From assembly GCF_003337245.1 (NCBI RefSeq), contig NZ_QPJE01000008.1:1-64000 (forward strand): 64,000 bases of DNA, in the 5' to 3' direction. The notes below the pieces were generated by a model. The model did no database searches and had not been told where the DNA came from. It was given only the letters and a program-made list of their open reading frames with translations. Position numbers and translations under genes: made by a program. The stretch comes from Halanaerobium sp. MA284_MarDTE_T2. Lineage in GTDB: Bacteria; Bacillota; Halanaerobiia; Halanaerobiales; Halanaerobiaceae. Positions 33,204-41,922 of the stretch are shown piece by piece; within the stretch, counting starts at the first letter, position 1; each line of letters opens with the position of its first letter.

Positions 33204-33367
33204 TATACCAGCTCCATCTTAAAATATTTCTGCCTCAGCTTCTCTTTGTACCGCCAGGTGGTACTCTTTCTGTTATCCATAAATAACAGCACCTCATCTT
33301 ATAAATTTAATCAATTATTGAGATTCATTATCAGTTATTATATATCTTTTAACATTTACTGTAAAGT

Positions 33368-33432: not shown

Positions 33433-34395
33433 CTATTTTATACAGGCTGAATAATGACCCGATTCCTTTTCTTCAAGCTCCACCTCTGTTCTAAGGCATT
33501 TCTCATCGGCCAGAGGACAGCGGGAACTGAAACTGCACCCTTCCGGCAGATTAATCATACTGGGGATTTCTCCTTCAAGCTTTATTTTAATATCTTCTTG
33601 TTCTGGATCTGGCTCAGGAATAGCAGACAGCAGTGCCTCTGTATAAGGATGGAGTGGATTACTAAATATCTGGTCAACTGTTCCCAGCTCAATTATTTTC
33701 CCCATATACATTACCGCTATCCTGTCAGCTATATATTCAATAACTCCTAGATCATGTGTTATAAAAAGCATAGTAAGGTCAAGTTTTTTCTGAAGATCCT
33801 GAAGCAGGTTTAATATCTGGGCCTGAACAGAAACATCGAGTGCAGAGGTCGGTTCATCAAGGAGCAAAAAATCCGGATTTAAAGCTATTGCTCTCGCAAT
33901 ACCGATGCGCTGTTTCTGGCCACCGCTAAATTCATGTGGATAACGGTAAAGATGTTCTTTTTTTAAACCTACAATATCCAGCAGCTCCAGTATTCTCTGC
34001 TTTAAAATTTTATTTTCTATATCAATATCATGAATTCTAAAAGGTTCTTCAAGAAGTTTTTTTATTGTTCTTCTGGGACTTAGAGAAGAATGTGGATCCT
34101 GAAAAACAATGGCCATATTTTTACGGAGTTCTTTTATCTCATTTTTGGAAAATTTATTTATATTTTTATCTGCAAATATTATTTCTCCACCATCCGGTTC
34201 AAGCAGAAGCATCAGAGTTCTGGCCAGAGTAGATTTTCCACAGCCCGATTCTCCCACAACTCCAAAAGTTTCTCCTTTTTTTATGAAAAAACTCAGATCA
34301 TTAACTGCTTTAATAACTGTTCTTTCTTTGTTAATTAATCCTTTTTCTTTTACAAAATATTTTTTTAAATTTTTTACTTCAATTAATTTATCCAT
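33433..34395 (-). CDS. dppF: Dipeptide/oligopeptide ABC transporter ATPase (DppF/OppF type)
   Basis: About 320 residues. Walker A GESGCGKSTLA, signature LSGGQ as FSGGQKQRIGIARA, Walker B FLLLDEPTSALDVS and H-loop FITHDLGV are all present. The C-terminal oligopeptide-ABC domain has the SSRCPLADEKC cysteine cluster that can bind Fe-S in DppD/DppF-type ATPases. It energises uptake with the paired ATPase at 34410. I chose ATG 34395 after GGAGG; the frame extends back to 34428 without a ribosome site. Last gene of the lysine-riboswitch operon. Confidence 0.92.
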   Translation of the reverse strand: MDKLIEVKNLKKYFVKEKGLINKERTVIKAVNDLSFFIKKGETFGVVGESGCGKSTLARTLMLLLEPDGGEIIFADKNINKFSKNEIKELRKNMAIVFQDPHSSLSPRRTIKKLLEEPFRIHDIDIENKILKQRILELLDIVGLKKEHLYRYPHEFSGGQKQRIGIARAIALNPDFLLLDEPTSALDVSVQAQILNLLQDLQKKLDLTMLFITHDLGVIEYIADRIAVMYMGKIIELGTVDQIFSNPLHPYTEALLSAIPEPDPEQEDIKIKLEGEIPSMINLPEGCSFSSRCPLADEKCLRTEVELEEKESGHYSACIK

Positions 34396-34409
34396 TAAAA
34401 ATCCTCCAG

Positions 34410-35402
34410 TTAAAATTGCAGATGACATTTCACATAGTGATTTTCATCTATGTATTTTCTCGGCGGTATAGTAGAACTGCATACATCCATTTTATATTCA
34501 CAGCGTGGATGAAATCTGCAGCCAGATGGTGGTGTTATCAGATTGGGAACTTTTCCTTTAATAATTTTAAGTTTTTCTCCCCTGCTCTCCCTGCGAGGTA
34601 TTGCTTTAAGCAGCCCCTCGGTGTAAGGATGAGATGGGTTCTTAAATAATTTTTTAACAGGAGCATATTCAACAATATTACCAGCATACATAACAGCCAC
34701 CCTGTCACATACACGTGCCACAACACCAAGATCATGTGTTATCAGCAGCATCGAAGACGACATCTCATCTCTAAGATTTTTAATCAATTTAAGAATTTGT
34801 GCCTGTATAGTAACATCTAGTGCTGTTGTTGGTTCATCAGCAATAAGCAGCTGTGGATGACAGGAAAGTGCAGTAGCTATCATTACTCTCTGCTGCATAC
34901 CTCCACTTAATTCATGCGGATATTTTCCCATAATGTGTTCCGGATCAGGAAGACCTACTTTTTTAAACATTTCCAGCGCTATTTTTTTCGCCATTCTGCT
35001 GCTTTTCCTCTGGTGCTTTTTTATAACCTGTTTTATCTGGGTACCAACATCAAACACGGGATTGAGAGAATTCATAGGATCCTGAAAAATCATAGATATC
35101 TGATTACCTCTAATATCCTGCATTTCTTTTTCTGTTTTTTTGATCAGATTTTCTCCATTAAAATTAATTTCTCCGGAGAGAATTTTACCCGGTGGATCAG
35201 GAATAAGTTTCATAATAGAAAGAGCAGTCACAGATTTACCGCTCCCGGTTTCTCCCACAAGACCCAGTGTTTCCCCCTTATTTACTACAAAAGAAACATC
35301 TTCAAGTGCTTTCACTTCCCCTTCATAAGTGAAAAAAGATGTCTTCAAATTTTTAACTTCAAGTAAAATCTCATTTTCATCCAAATTATTTTCCTTTTCC
35401 AT
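34410..35402 (-). CDS. dppD: Dipeptide/oligopeptide ABC transporter ATPase (DppD/OppD type)
   Basis: About 330 residues, with Walker A GETGSGKSVTA, signature ELSGGMQQRVMIA, Walker B LLIADEPTTALDVT and the RFHPRCEYKMDVC cysteine cluster near the C-terminus. Start ATG 35402 has GGAGG seven bases upstream, and the gene begins just after dppC ends. It forms the heterodimeric motor with DppF. Confidence 0.92.
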   Translation of the reverse strand: MEKENNLDENEILLEVKNLKTSFFTYEGEVKALEDVSFVVNKGETLGLVGETGSGKSVTALSIMKLIPDPPGKILSGEINFNGENLIKKTEKEMQDIRGNQISMIFQDPMNSLNPVFDVGTQIKQVIKKHQRKSSRMAKKIALEMFKKVGLPDPEHIMGKYPHELSGGMQQRVMIATALSCHPQLLIADEPTTALDVTIQAQILKLIKNLRDEMSSSMLLITHDLGVVARVCDRVAVMYAGNIVEYAPVKKLFKNPSHPYTEGLLKAIPRRESRGEKLKIIKGKVPNLITPPSGCRFHPRCEYKMDVCSSTIPPRKYIDENHYVKCHLQF

Positions 35403-35406
35403 TTTA

Positions 35407-36300
35407 CTACCTCCTGAGCCTGGGATCAAGCACATCCCTCAGACCGTCACCTAAAATATTAAACCCTACCACCACAAATAGTATGGCAAGTCCTGGAAAT
35501 GCAGCAACCCACCATTCAGAAACAATATATTGGCGGCCATCACTGACCATAGCTCCCCATTCTGGGAGTGGAGGCTGAGCACCAAACCCTATAAAGCTCA
35601 GTCCTGCTGCTGCAAGTATAACTGTACCCAAATCCATAGTTGCCCTAACTATTATAGGGGAAAGGCAGTTTGGTAAAATATGAATAAATAATATGCGGAT
35701 ATCACTGCCCCCCATAGAGCGAATTGCCTCAATAAACTGAGAGTTTTTAATCGATAAAACCTGGCTCCTCACCAATCGTGCATAAACCGGCCAGCGCACA
35801 AGTGCAATTGCAATAATAGTATTTCTTAAATTGGGTCCTAATGCTGCTGCAATTGCCATCGCTAAAATAAGTGGTGGAAAAGATAAGAACATATCGGCTA
35901 TTCTCATCAGTATATTATCACCTGCACCACCAATATAACCACTTACAGCTCCGACAATAATACCTATGGCTGCTCCAATTGAGACAACTATAATTCCTAT
36001 CAGCACAGAAATCCTGCTGCCATATATAATTCTGCTCAAAATATCTCTTCCCATATCATCGGTTCCCAGAGGATGCTGAAAGCTGGGAGCTTCAAGTCTG
36101 GCCGACATTTCCTGATAATAAGGATCATGTGGAGCCAGAAAGGGAGCAAAAACAGCTATCAATAGAAAACAGGCTATTATAAATGCTCCAATCATAGAAA
36201 GTGGACTTTTTGAAATTAAATGTAATGTATATTTAAATTCTTTAATTTTAGATTCATGTTTTTTTAACCAGCTATCTATAAGTGTATCTGTTGTTTCCAT
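35407..36300 (-). CDS. dppC: Dipeptide/oligopeptide ABC transporter permease (DppC/OppC type)
   Basis: A 297-residue permease with an N-terminal OppC_N segment (SKSPLSMIGAFIIACFLLIAVF), HPLGTDDMGRDILSRIIYGSR, and six hydrophobic segments. The EAA loop that contacts the ATPases is AIRSMGGSDIRILFIHILPN near residue 190. Ends LRDVLDPRLRR, the family C-terminus. Confidence 0.92.
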   Translation of the reverse strand: METTDTLIDSWLKKHESKIKEFKYTLHLISKSPLSMIGAFIIACFLLIAVFAPFLAPHDPYYQEMSARLEAPSFQHPLGTDDMGRDILSRIIYGSRISVLIGIIVVSIGAAIGIIVGAVSGYIGGAGDNILMRIADMFLSFPPLILAMAIAAALGPNLRNTIIAIALVRWPVYARLVRSQVLSIKNSQFIEAIRSMGGSDIRILFIHILPNCLSPIIVRATMDLGTVILAAAGLSFIGFGAQPPLPEWGAMVSDGRQYIVSEWWVAAFPGLAILFVVVGFNILGDGLRDVLDPRLRR

Positions 36301-36321: not shown

Positions 36322-37341
36322 TTAATTTATCTCATCATATTTAATTCTTGGATCAAAAAATCCATATAATAAATCTACAAAAAGATTTGCAAGTGAATAT
36401 ACCAGTGCTATTAAAAGAGTAACACCCATTACAGCTGGAAAATCAAGAAAAAGCATGGATTCGACAACATAACGTCCGATACCAGGCCAGGAAAAGATTG
36501 TTTCTGTCAGCACAGCACCAGACAAAAGACTGCCATAAGACAGTCCAATAATAGTTAATGTAGGTATAAAAGCATTTTTAAATGCAAGCTTAAATATAAT
36601 CAATTTTTCTGACAATCCAAAAGAATATGAACTTCTAATATAATCCTGATTCATAACTTCCAGCATACTGGAACGCATCATTCTTGCAATCTGTGCTGTA
36701 GAAAGATATCCAAGACAAAAAGCTGGAAGAATTATGTGTTGCAAACTGCTCCAGAATGCATCAAAATTTCCGGTTATTAAGCTGTCTACAAGATAGAGAC
36801 CTGTAATATCTCTGGGCGGCATAATAAACATTGCAATTCTGCCTGAACTCGGTAAAAAGTGAAGATGATTATAAAATAAGGCCATAAGTAAAAGTCCAAG
36901 CCAGAAAACAGGCATAGAAACACCCAGCAGTGAAAAAATTCTCGCTCCCTGATCAAGCCAGCTGTCTTTTTTTACAGCAGATAATATTCCCAGGGGAATT
37001 CCTAAAATAATGGATAGAATAATAGCAAAAGTGGATAATTCAAAAGTGGCAGGAAAAAAATTTTTTAAATCTGCAGTCACATCCCTCTTGGTTCTTATAG
37101 ATTCACCAAGATCAAAATTAATAAGTCCTTTCATATATATAAAATACTGTTCATGAATTGGTTTATTTAAACCCAGATCCTCTCTCATCTTTTCTATCTG
37201 CTCATCTGTTCCCCGTCCACCGAGCATTGTAAGCACAGGATCTCCAGGCACAACATGAGAAAGGGTAAATGTTATTATTGAAATTCCAATCAGCATCAAA
37301 ACTGTATAAAACAGCCTTTTAAGTAAAAAAACTTTCACCAA
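36322..37341 (-). CDS. dppB: Dipeptide/oligopeptide ABC transporter permease (DppB/OppB type)
   Basis: A 339-residue permease with six hydrophobic segments, the N-terminal VVPGDPVLTMLG block, ARMMRSSMLEVMNQDYIRS and the LLSGAVLTETIFSWPGIGRY signature. Together with DppC it forms the channel. Twenty-one bases separate it from dppC. Confidence 0.92.
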   Translation of the reverse strand: MVKVFLLKRLFYTVLMLIGISIITFTLSHVVPGDPVLTMLGGRGTDEQIEKMREDLGLNKPIHEQYFIYMKGLINFDLGESIRTKRDVTADLKNFFPATFELSTFAIILSIILGIPLGILSAVKKDSWLDQGARIFSLLGVSMPVFWLGLLLMALFYNHLHFLPSSGRIAMFIMPPRDITGLYLVDSLITGNFDAFWSSLQHIILPAFCLGYLSTAQIARMMRSSMLEVMNQDYIRSSYSFGLSEKLIIFKLAFKNAFIPTLTIIGLSYGSLLSGAVLTETIFSWPGIGRYVVESMLFLDFPAVMGVTLLIALVYSLANLFVDLLYGFFDPRIKYDEIN

Positions 37342-37400
37342 AATACCTCCTTGACGACAATTAAATTCGCTGCCCTCAAAAAGAGAGCAGCGATACAGTT

Positions 37401-39182: not shown

Positions 39183-39212
39183 AAAAAACCCGGTGGATTG
39201 CCACCGAGTTTG
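39183..39212 (-). terminator. Riboswitch-controlled terminator
   Basis: AAACTCGGTGG / CCACCGGGTTT hairpin with TTTTTT on the minus strand, at the 3' end of the lysine riboswitch and before dppA. Confidence 0.9.
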
Positions 39213-39244
39213 ATTTTCCAGTAGAAATCACCTGCATTTTATTA

Positions 39245-39447
39245 AGAGAGGTAGCACATCACCAACTGAATAAATATGGTGACAGTACTGCATATCTTAT
39301 ATACAGTCCCAGCACTCTGTTTCGGACAAAACAGAAAGCTTCGGCAGATCCACCTTTCATTTTAGACCACTGTCCAGTGTTATGCCCAAAATTACTGATC
39401 AGTCTCTGCACCTCTACCCCATCTTATTAAGATGAGGCAACCTCTTA
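39245..39447 (-). ncRNA. Lysine riboswitch (L-box)
   Basis: Read on the minus strand this shows the lysine aptamer core in order: GGTAGAGGTGC (39404-39414 region), CAGTAATTTT, GAAAGGTGGATCTGCCGAAGC, GTGCTGGGACTG, GTACTGTCACCAT, and closing TGGTGATGTGCTACCTC that pairs with the 5' AGAGGT strand. The order and spacing match the L-box class. It follows a strong promoter and ends in a terminator, so lysine binding should stop transcription of dppABCDF. Confidence 0.93.
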
Positions 39448-39468
39448 TATTCTCTTTTAGTTAATTAA

Positions 39469-39497
39469 ATTATAACTGAGATAATTTTTTTTGTCAA
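39469..39497 (-). promoter_or_regulatory. SigA promoter of riboswitch/dpp operon
   Basis: Consensus TTGACA (39497-39492) and TATAAT (39474-39469) with a 17-base spacer on the minus strand, starting transcription about 15 bases before the aptamer. Confidence 0.88.
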
Positions 39498-39688: not shown

Positions 39689-40351
39689 TTATTCAAAAAG
39701 AGATTCAAACTCCTGATAACCTTCTTCAGCCAGGTTTTCTGCTGGGATAAATCTTAGAGCTGCTGAATTAATACAGTAGCGCAAACCTGTTGGCTCAGGG
39801 CCATCCGAAAATACGTGACCTAAATGAGAATCTGCACCTTTACTTCTGACCTCAATTCTAGTCATCCAGAGTGAGTTATCTTCAACTTCAACAATATTTT
39901 CCTCGACCAGCGGTTTAGTAAAGCTCGGCCATCCGGATCCGGATTTAAATTTATCTGTTGAAGAAAAAAGAGGTTCTCCTGAAACAACATCTACGTAAAT
40001 ACCAGGCTTTTTATTATCCCAGTATTTATTATTGAATGCAGGTTCTGTAGCATTAAGCTGAGTTACCTTATACTGCAGGTCTGTCAGCCTTGCTCTCAAT
40101 TCCTGGTCACTTTCTTCTTCATTAATTACTACACTGTCAGCATCTTCAGTCTTACAGAAAGTCACACATTCTGCCGAGTCAATATTATTTTTTTCTAATA
40201 GCCTTTCCTGCAGCTCGGTAGTCAAACCAAGCTCACCTATATTTTTAATAATATTATCCCGCTCTCCATTACCGGTAATATAGCCGCTCACTTTTGTTAC
40301 CGCTGGAGAATTTATAAACTCCTGTATTATCATCTGATTCAAATAATCCAT
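39689..40351 (-). CDS. msrB: Peptide-methionine (R)-S-oxide reductase MsrB with N-terminal extension
   Basis: A 220-residue protein. Residues ~92-220 are a full MsrB domain, which repairs oxidised methionine: [26 protein letters not shown] and the catalytic Cys in [11 protein letters not shown]. The zinc CxxC pairs of many MsrBs are absent. Residues 1-90 are an extra segment of unknown origin, with [22 protein letters not shown] and two cysteines (ECVTFC) that might act as resolving thiols. Start ATG 40351 after AGGAGGTAG. Monocistronic. Confidence 0.88.
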
Positions 40352-40542: not shown

Positions 40543-41922
40543 ATGACTAAAGAAAAAAATAAAAAACCAACTACAAAAACGGCAGTTACTGCACTATTGA
40601 CAGTTATTGCAGTGATTTTAATTTCAATTCGTACAGCTCTTGTTTTACAGTCAGCTTTAGTTTTAGGAGCAATGACCGCCGCTTTATTTGCCCTTTATCT
40701 CGGTTTAAGCTGGAAAGAAATTGAAAGTGGAATGATTAGCGGTATTAAAAATGCTCTGGGGGCTTCAATAATTTTAATTATCATCGGCATGGTAATTGGA
40801 AGCTGGGTTTTATCAGGAACAATCCAGACAATGGTCTATTATGGATTGGAGATTTTGAGTCCGAGTTTCTTTTTACCGGCCGCCTTTCTGCTCTCAGCTC
40901 TTACCTCTATTTTAATCGGAAGTTCTTTTGGAACAATTGCCACCATGGGGATTGTCCTGCTTGGAGTTGCTGAGGGACTGGGAGTTCCTAAAGCAATTAC
41001 TGTAGGAGCAATAGTCTCTGGTGCTATGCTGGGTGATAAAATTTCTCCCATGTCGGATTCAACAAACTTAACTGCCGCCATGAGCAGTACAGATTTATTT
41101 GAACATATTAAATCAATGCTTTACATATCAGTTCCGGCAGCTTTTATAAGTTTAATCCTCTACTCTATTATTGGATCTTCCTATCTTGATGTTGGAGCTA
41201 ACTTAAGTCAAATTTCAATGATTATGGAAAATTTAAGCAGCAATTTTAATATTTCTTTGTGGACTTTAATTCCACCAGCTTTAATGCTTCTGCTTTCACT
41301 CTTTAAAATGCCTGCTATTGCCTCACTTTCGATCAGCTTTATCACAGCTTCCATTTTTGCATTTTTAACTCAGGGGGCTTCTTTTGCTGAAATTTTAAAT
41401 GCAGCTGCCAGCGGCTATCAGGCAGATACCGGGATGGAACTTTTGGACAGCCTCTTAACTCAGGGGGGAATAAATAATATGATGAGTACAGTTGCTATCA
41501 TTATGGCGGGTACTGCGATGGGAGGTATTTTAGAAAAAGCAAGAATTTTAGAAGTGATACTGGAATCAATGCTAAAAATAGTTAAAAAACCGAGGGATTT
41601 AATTTTAATTTCTCTAACTTCAGCTTATGTAATGCTCTTAGCAACTGGAGAAATGTTTGTTTCAATTGTAATTCCAGGACGTACTTTGGCTCCTGCTTAT
41701 CAGGAAATGAATATCAATACCAATGTGCTTTCCCGCTCCTTAGAAACTGCTTCCACACTGGGCTGCTCAATTTTGCCATGGGGTGTTGTTTCAGTCTATA
41801 TCCAGAATGTAATGGACATCGGCTTCAGCTATATTCCTTATACATTTTTGGCCTTTCTGGCGCCGATGATTGCTGTGCTCTATGCAGTGAGCGGTACTTT
41901 TATCTTTAAAAGCAGAAAATAA
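40543..41922 (+). CDS. nhaC: NhaC-family Na+/H+ antiporter or amino-acid antiporter
   Basis: A 459-residue membrane carrier with about 11-12 hydrophobic segments. NhaC hallmarks are GSSFGTIATMGIVLLGVAEG near residue 127, GAMLGDKISPMSDSTNLTA near 162 and ETASTLGCSILPWGV near 400. The family exchanges Na+ for H+, but members in Firmicutes also move malate/lactate or lysine. Its place ~1 kb from a lysine-riboswitch operon makes a lysine role conceivable, though no riboswitch precedes this gene. Start ATG 40543 after AAGGAAG. Confidence 0.85.
   Translation: MTKEKNKKPTTKTAVTALLTVIAVILISIRTALVLQSALVLGAMTAALFALYLGLSWKEIESGMISGIKNALGASIILIIIGMVIGSWVLSGTIQTMVYYGLEILSPSFFLPAAFLLSALTSILIGSSFGTIATMGIVLLGVAEGLGVPKAITVGAIVSGAMLGDKISPMSDSTNLTAAMSSTDLFEHIKSMLYISVPAAFISLILYSIIGSSYLDVGANLSQISMIMENLSSNFNISLWTLIPPALMLLLSLFKMPAIASLSISFITASIFAFLTQGASFAEILNAAASGYQADTGMELLDSLLTQGGINNMMSTVAIIMAGTAMGGILEKARILEVILESMLKIVKKPRDLILISLTSAYVMLLATGEMFVSIVIPGRTLAPAYQEMNINTNVLSRSLETASTLGCSILPWGVVSVYIQNVMDIGFSYIPYTFLAFLAPMIAVLYAVSGTFIFKSRK

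Follow-up and report, generated by a model that had tools for sequence, protein, structure and literature searches.

Lysine riboswitches (L-boxes) have been described ahead of genes for LysP/GabP, LysW, YvsH, LysXY, some unclassified transporters and oligoendopeptidase F (PMC5584792). Family-5 or peptide importers are not among the targets in the main text of that source, and the founding 2003 L-box survey lies outside our comparison. What, then, does an L-box control when it stands in front of a complete peptide-type ABC operon, and what does that transporter carry? We addressed this question in a 64,000-nucleotide stretch of Halanaerobium sp. MA284_MarDTE_T2 (the window; contig NZ_QPJE01000008.1, positions 1 to 64,000), whose relevant features are listed in Table 1. 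Our answer, which we consider likely, is that the L-box attenuates a five-gene family-5 ABC importer for the scavenging of lysine or of a compound that contains it; the switch itself is predicted by folding, and we infer lysine as the effector, repression as its effect, a single transcript and the cargo.

Table 1 Features of the leader and the operon in the window.
Feature	Position	Strand	Basis or detail
Sigma-70-type promoter, TTGACA-N17-TATAAT	39469..39497	-	Exact, 12/12 match
5' strand of predicted extended P1 helix of the leader	39412..39445	-	Minimum-energy fold
Lysine riboswitch (L-box) aptamer, RF00168	39244..39424	-	Rfam covariance match
P1 3' strand, UGCUACC	39250..39256	-	Predicted anti-terminator strand; pairs with 39199-39205 when P1 is absent
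GGUGGCA, terminator 5' arm/loop and anti-terminator partner	39199..39205	-	Folding of nascent RNA
Intrinsic terminator	39186..39211	-	11-bp stem, then TTTAAT
Family-5 substrate-binding protein (SBP), 512 aa, N-terminal signal-like segment	37401..38939	-	PF00496, 322.8 bits
Hairpin between SBP and permease genes, role putative	37367..37393	-	
DppB/OppB-type permease	36322..37341	-	PF00528, PF19300
DppC/OppC-type permease	35407..36300	-	PF00528, PF12911
DppD/OppD-type ATPase	34410..35435	-	PF00005 and PF08352 (oligo_HPY)
DppF/OppF-type ATPase, last gene of presumed operon	33433..34428	-	PF00005 and PF08352

The initial annotation had placed a consensus promoter, full L-box aptamer motifs and a terminator ahead of the operon, and all three were recovered with its coordinates correct. 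The promoter is the only exact TTGACA-N17-TATAAT sequence in the whole window, compared to 0.04 expected from shuffles. An Rfam scan of the window returned RF00168 as the sole match at the gathering threshold (30 bits), with a score of 114.4 bits (E = 8.3e-30) and coverage of the entire model (positions 1-182 of 182). The aptamer agrees at 56 of the 58 columns that are invariant across 29 other L-boxes of the order, with one departure in a loop region and the other a U-to-C change in the P1 3' strand; the riboswitch is typical of its class. Both the terminator (-15.9 kcal/mol) and the whole leader (-93.9 kcal/mol), which folds with both a long, extended P1 helix and the terminator, have a z of -6.1, the former against dinucleotide shuffles.

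These elements are predicted to operate as usual lysine-OFF transcription attenuation. At high lysine the aptamer would hold the extended P1 helix, the terminator would form and the operon would be off; at low lysine the P1 3' strand would pair with GGUGGCA of the terminator 5' arm, and this anti-terminator would let polymerase read through so that the importer is made. Folding of nascent RNA without the P1 5' strand yields this UGCUACC-GGUGGCA pairing, which overlaps the 5' arm of the terminator. Because the full terminator is stabler than the forced anti-terminator in the isolated 3' segment (-26.9 versus -18.9), read-through would be a kinetic outcome; terminator-favouring energies would be expected of a kinetic switch, but are no proof of one. 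The leaders of the other three L-box SBP operons described below all have a terminator, and folding found an equally clear anti-terminator in none of them. A full aptamer, an extended P1, a downstream intrinsic terminator and attenuation (predicted here) are likewise features of the B. subtilis lysC-type L-box (RF00168); the window L-box differs in preceding a family-5 SBP ABC importer instead of lysine biosynthesis genes or a listed lysine carrier.

The SBP, permease and ATPase genes of the operon match family models above their cut-offs and make up a peptide/nickel (family 5) importer set. Neither LysW nor a hydrolase is encoded in the operon, and an amino-acid-type (family 3) binding protein was not found in it, the SBP matching PF00496 only. 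Hairpins such as the one between the SBP and permease genes are common at this place in ABC operons. The five-gene peptide-type set that the initial annotation had linked to the leader as 'dppABCDF' is thus present, while the Dpp name holds at the family level only: against the DppA equivalog model (NF043070; cut-off 1005) the SBP reaches 175.7 bits, and its best equivalog match, GsiB, is also below cut-off (215 versus 594 bits). We use 'Dpp' as a family label that should imply no specificity. Sequence seldom reveals what a family-5 SBP importer carries, and many such systems bear only the annotation 'peptide ABC transporter'.

Downstream of the last ATPase gene, a strong promoter-like site (11/12; 33337-33365, reverse strand) precedes a HAD hydrolase/DUF188 gene pair, which is therefore probably outside the operon. 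At the other end, a reverse-strand gene that ends just upstream of the promoter (39689-40351) codes for a methionine sulfoxide reductase of the MsrB type (TIGR00357) that carries ~80 additional residues at its N-terminus. The forward strand upstream of the operon carries an NhaC-type antiporter gene (40543-41922) without an L-box; its identification as LysW was rejected given this absence and a score of 397 against TIGR00931 (NhaC sensu stricto; cut-off 370).

E. coli DppA holds the amino end of a dipeptide with Asp436 and the carboxyl end with Arg383 (PMC12136057). Asp416 of the window SBP aligns at the position of DppA Asp436 and OppA Asp445, and a Gly beside a gap aligns at the Arg383 position, leaving no clear equivalent. 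The AlphaFold model of the protein (pLDDT 91) has 5u4o and GsiB (1uqw) as its nearest folds, with DppA close behind and OppA also among the neighbours. Ligands of these relatives include peptides, glutathione, nickel chelates, opines and one amino-acid-like molecule (aminoserine in 8upi), so the fold does not settle between peptide and free lysine, and we dropped a reading of pocket specificity from it even though the model is good. Taken as known systems, E. coli DppABCDF and GsiABCD share with the window system these folds, the equivalent of DppA Asp436 and the SBP-B-C-D-F gene order of dpp; the window system differs in its sub-threshold equivalog scores, the lack of a clearly aligned Arg383 and its riboswitch control.

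Exactly two L-boxes above the cut-off occur in the genome assembly. The other, on contig 1 (C1:99003-99194), also precedes a family-5 SBP operon, composed of SBP, permease B, permease C, an Amidohydro_3 enzyme and LysW on the reverse strand; the intergenic gaps range from -4 to 42 nt, and ATPase genes are absent (L031, G000:C1:90000-104000). Speculatively, both transporters may be served by ATPases encoded elsewhere, such as the window operon's. The same five genes follow an L-box in a genome of a sister genus (G019), and in a further genome (G022) an L-box precedes SBP-B-C at one locus and LysW at a second. The SBPs of these three operons are 50-72% identical to one another and 27-30% identical to the window SBP (27% for that of contig 1) and form a separate clade; given this low identity, two unlike family-5 SBPs stand under L-boxes in the order.

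Across the order, a family-5 SBP lies behind 4 of the 31 L-boxes above the cut-off; 15 other L-boxes precede LysW alone, with upstream neighbours common to several genomes, 11 precede a 410-aa LysA and one is at a contig end. Close relatives have an L-box followed by LysW alone at the syntenic slot of the second L-box operon. Among the other genomes compared, none yielded an orthologue of the window operon headed by an L-box, which leaves this operon as a single case. The nearest relative of its SBP outside the genome (44% identical, from an Armatimonadetes MAG) is without an L-box, and none was found at the best-matching relative locus (L069) or at ten other loci, mostly from Firmicutes. In a tree of 30 L-boxes the window aptamer grouped with transporter-type ones, with negligible support and on a long branch, and the tree was set aside. 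Relative to the literature compared, the new part is the regulon content, namely an L-box with a family-5 SBP importer twice in one genome and also in two relatives.

Orthologues of the second-operon SBP (48-52% identical) occur in two genomes that have no L-box, with the SBP-B-C arrangement kept. One of these gene sets (L264, G026:C27:1-6622) is preceded by genes for a piperideine-6-carboxylate dehydrogenase and a saccharopine-dehydrogenase-fold protein and is followed by a Glu/Leu-dehydrogenase-like gene. The first of these enzymes scores 585.6 bits against NF050084 on a contig-truncated piece of 361 aa (the cut-off of 730 is for the full length), and its nearest solved relatives include alpha-aminoadipic semialdehyde dehydrogenases; judged from these genes, the cluster is probably one for lysine degradation. 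The other set (G029) is followed by genes for an M20 peptidase and for an Amidohydro_3 enzyme sharing 43% identity with the one in the L-box operon. Three further distant SBP relatives (G226, G314 and G384) lie in stretches without an L-box.

Outside the order, we surveyed 152 L-box loci, comprising the better-scoring L-boxes of a phylum sample and those of the class, each with 1.8-4.7 kb (median 4.7 kb) downstream; L-box orientation was confirmed by HMM for 151. A family-5 SBP was found downstream of none of the 152, using an HMM that recovers 33 of 33 controls, while LysW was present at 26 loci and LysA of the tested type at 55. Relatives of the second-operon Amidohydro_3 enzyme (PF07969) are the first or second gene at three loci, compared to ~0.09 expected from a rough extrapolation of gene density in the order's genomes rather than in the sampled groups. 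The gene stands behind an amino-acid permease gene at one locus (L214). At the next (L320), a second amidohydrolase gene, a deacetylase gene and one of the formamidase family come after it, and at the last (L299), where the match is more distant (32% identity), a sodium:alanine-type symporter gene does. These associations suggest that the Amidohydro_3 enzyme is possibly an unrecognised member of the lysine regulon.

The terminator and the SBP start codon are 247 nt apart, and this long gap holds a 9/12 promoter-like site (39036-39007) from which the importer could be transcribed on its own, with the L-box RNA ending at the terminator. However, such sites are no more frequent in the window than by chance (35 found versus 34.6 expected in shuffled sequence), L-boxes as a rule regulate in cis, and the pairing of L-box and SBP is seen at three other loci; we consider independent transcription very improbable. 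Were the riboswitch to act as described, the importer might still be a general di- or oligopeptide permease whose SBP has no lysine preference, lysine serving only as a starvation signal. The peptide-amine Asp of the window SBP, the DppA, OppA and GsiB folds among its neighbours and the full Dpp-type five-gene set would all fit such a permease. Against this, other SBP/Dpp operons of the genome (for example on contig C5, with an SBP 39% identical) are without an L-box, one of the genome's two L-boxes serves a different SBP, and in the second group of L-box SBPs, which is associated with genes of lysine catabolism, the peptide-amine Asp is replaced by His, Glu or Ser. A general permease is accordingly an explanation that we rate as rather unlikely.

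We favour a lysine-related cargo, with good confidence. The initial annotation had proposed import of lysine or lysine-bearing peptides, and this gains support from the second family-5 SBP operon, which also contains LysW and is driven by the genome's other L-box, from its full or partial recurrence in two relatives and from the lysine-degradation or amide-hydrolase genes beside orthologous SBPs. Whether the lysine would be amide-bonded or free is close to evenly balanced. That an amide-bonded derivative, such as an N-acyl-lysine or a short lysyl peptide, is imported and then hydrolysed, free lysine not being the cargo, is plausible at somewhat under even chances: an Amidohydro_3 enzyme is encoded in the second L-box operon and again behind the three distant L-boxes, and G029 pairs its SBP with both an M20 peptidase and an amidohydrolase. 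However, the window operon has no hydrolase gene, the role of the Amidohydro_3 enzyme is only putative, its expected frequency was extrapolated from the order and the L299 match is distant. More tentatively still, a wider, hitherto undescribed L-box scavenging regulon may exist, in which at least two unrelated family-5 SBP importers and, separately, Amidohydro_3 enzymes behind distant L-boxes would between them import amide-bonded lysine (N-acyl-lysine or lysyl peptides) and cleave it to supply the cell with lysine. The genome encodes LysA (TIGR01048, 443.8; cut-off 297.9) without an L-box, so the need for lysine is not absolute, and the idea that lysine auxotrophy explains a regulon of transport genes only is unsupported.

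L-box-controlled putative lysine uptake is a feature that the window operon shares with LysW (NhaC family), which sits in the genome's second L-box operon; LysW is a secondary carrier, whereas the window operon encodes a primary ABC importer. LysXY is likewise an ABC importer downstream of an L-box, and it is described as an ABC-type amino acid transporter (COG0834; PMC5584792), in contrast to the PF00496 SBP, peptide/nickel-type permeases and oligo_HPY ATPases of the window system. A riboswitch of known ligand ahead of two unlike family-5 importers, with lysine-catabolic neighbours in relatives, provides a testable substrate; if the reading is true, the lysine regulon gains a transporter class and possibly an amidohydrolase.

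Lysine riboswitches are mostly single (PMC12452182). A tandem pair was observed in one genome (G434), where L-boxes at C38:140190-140354 and 140437-140596, separated by 82 bases, stand ahead of what looks like an aspartokinase-semialdehyde dehydrogenase-DapA run. Two genomes of one genus (G058 and G102, g44) each have five L-boxes genome-wide, far above the usual number.
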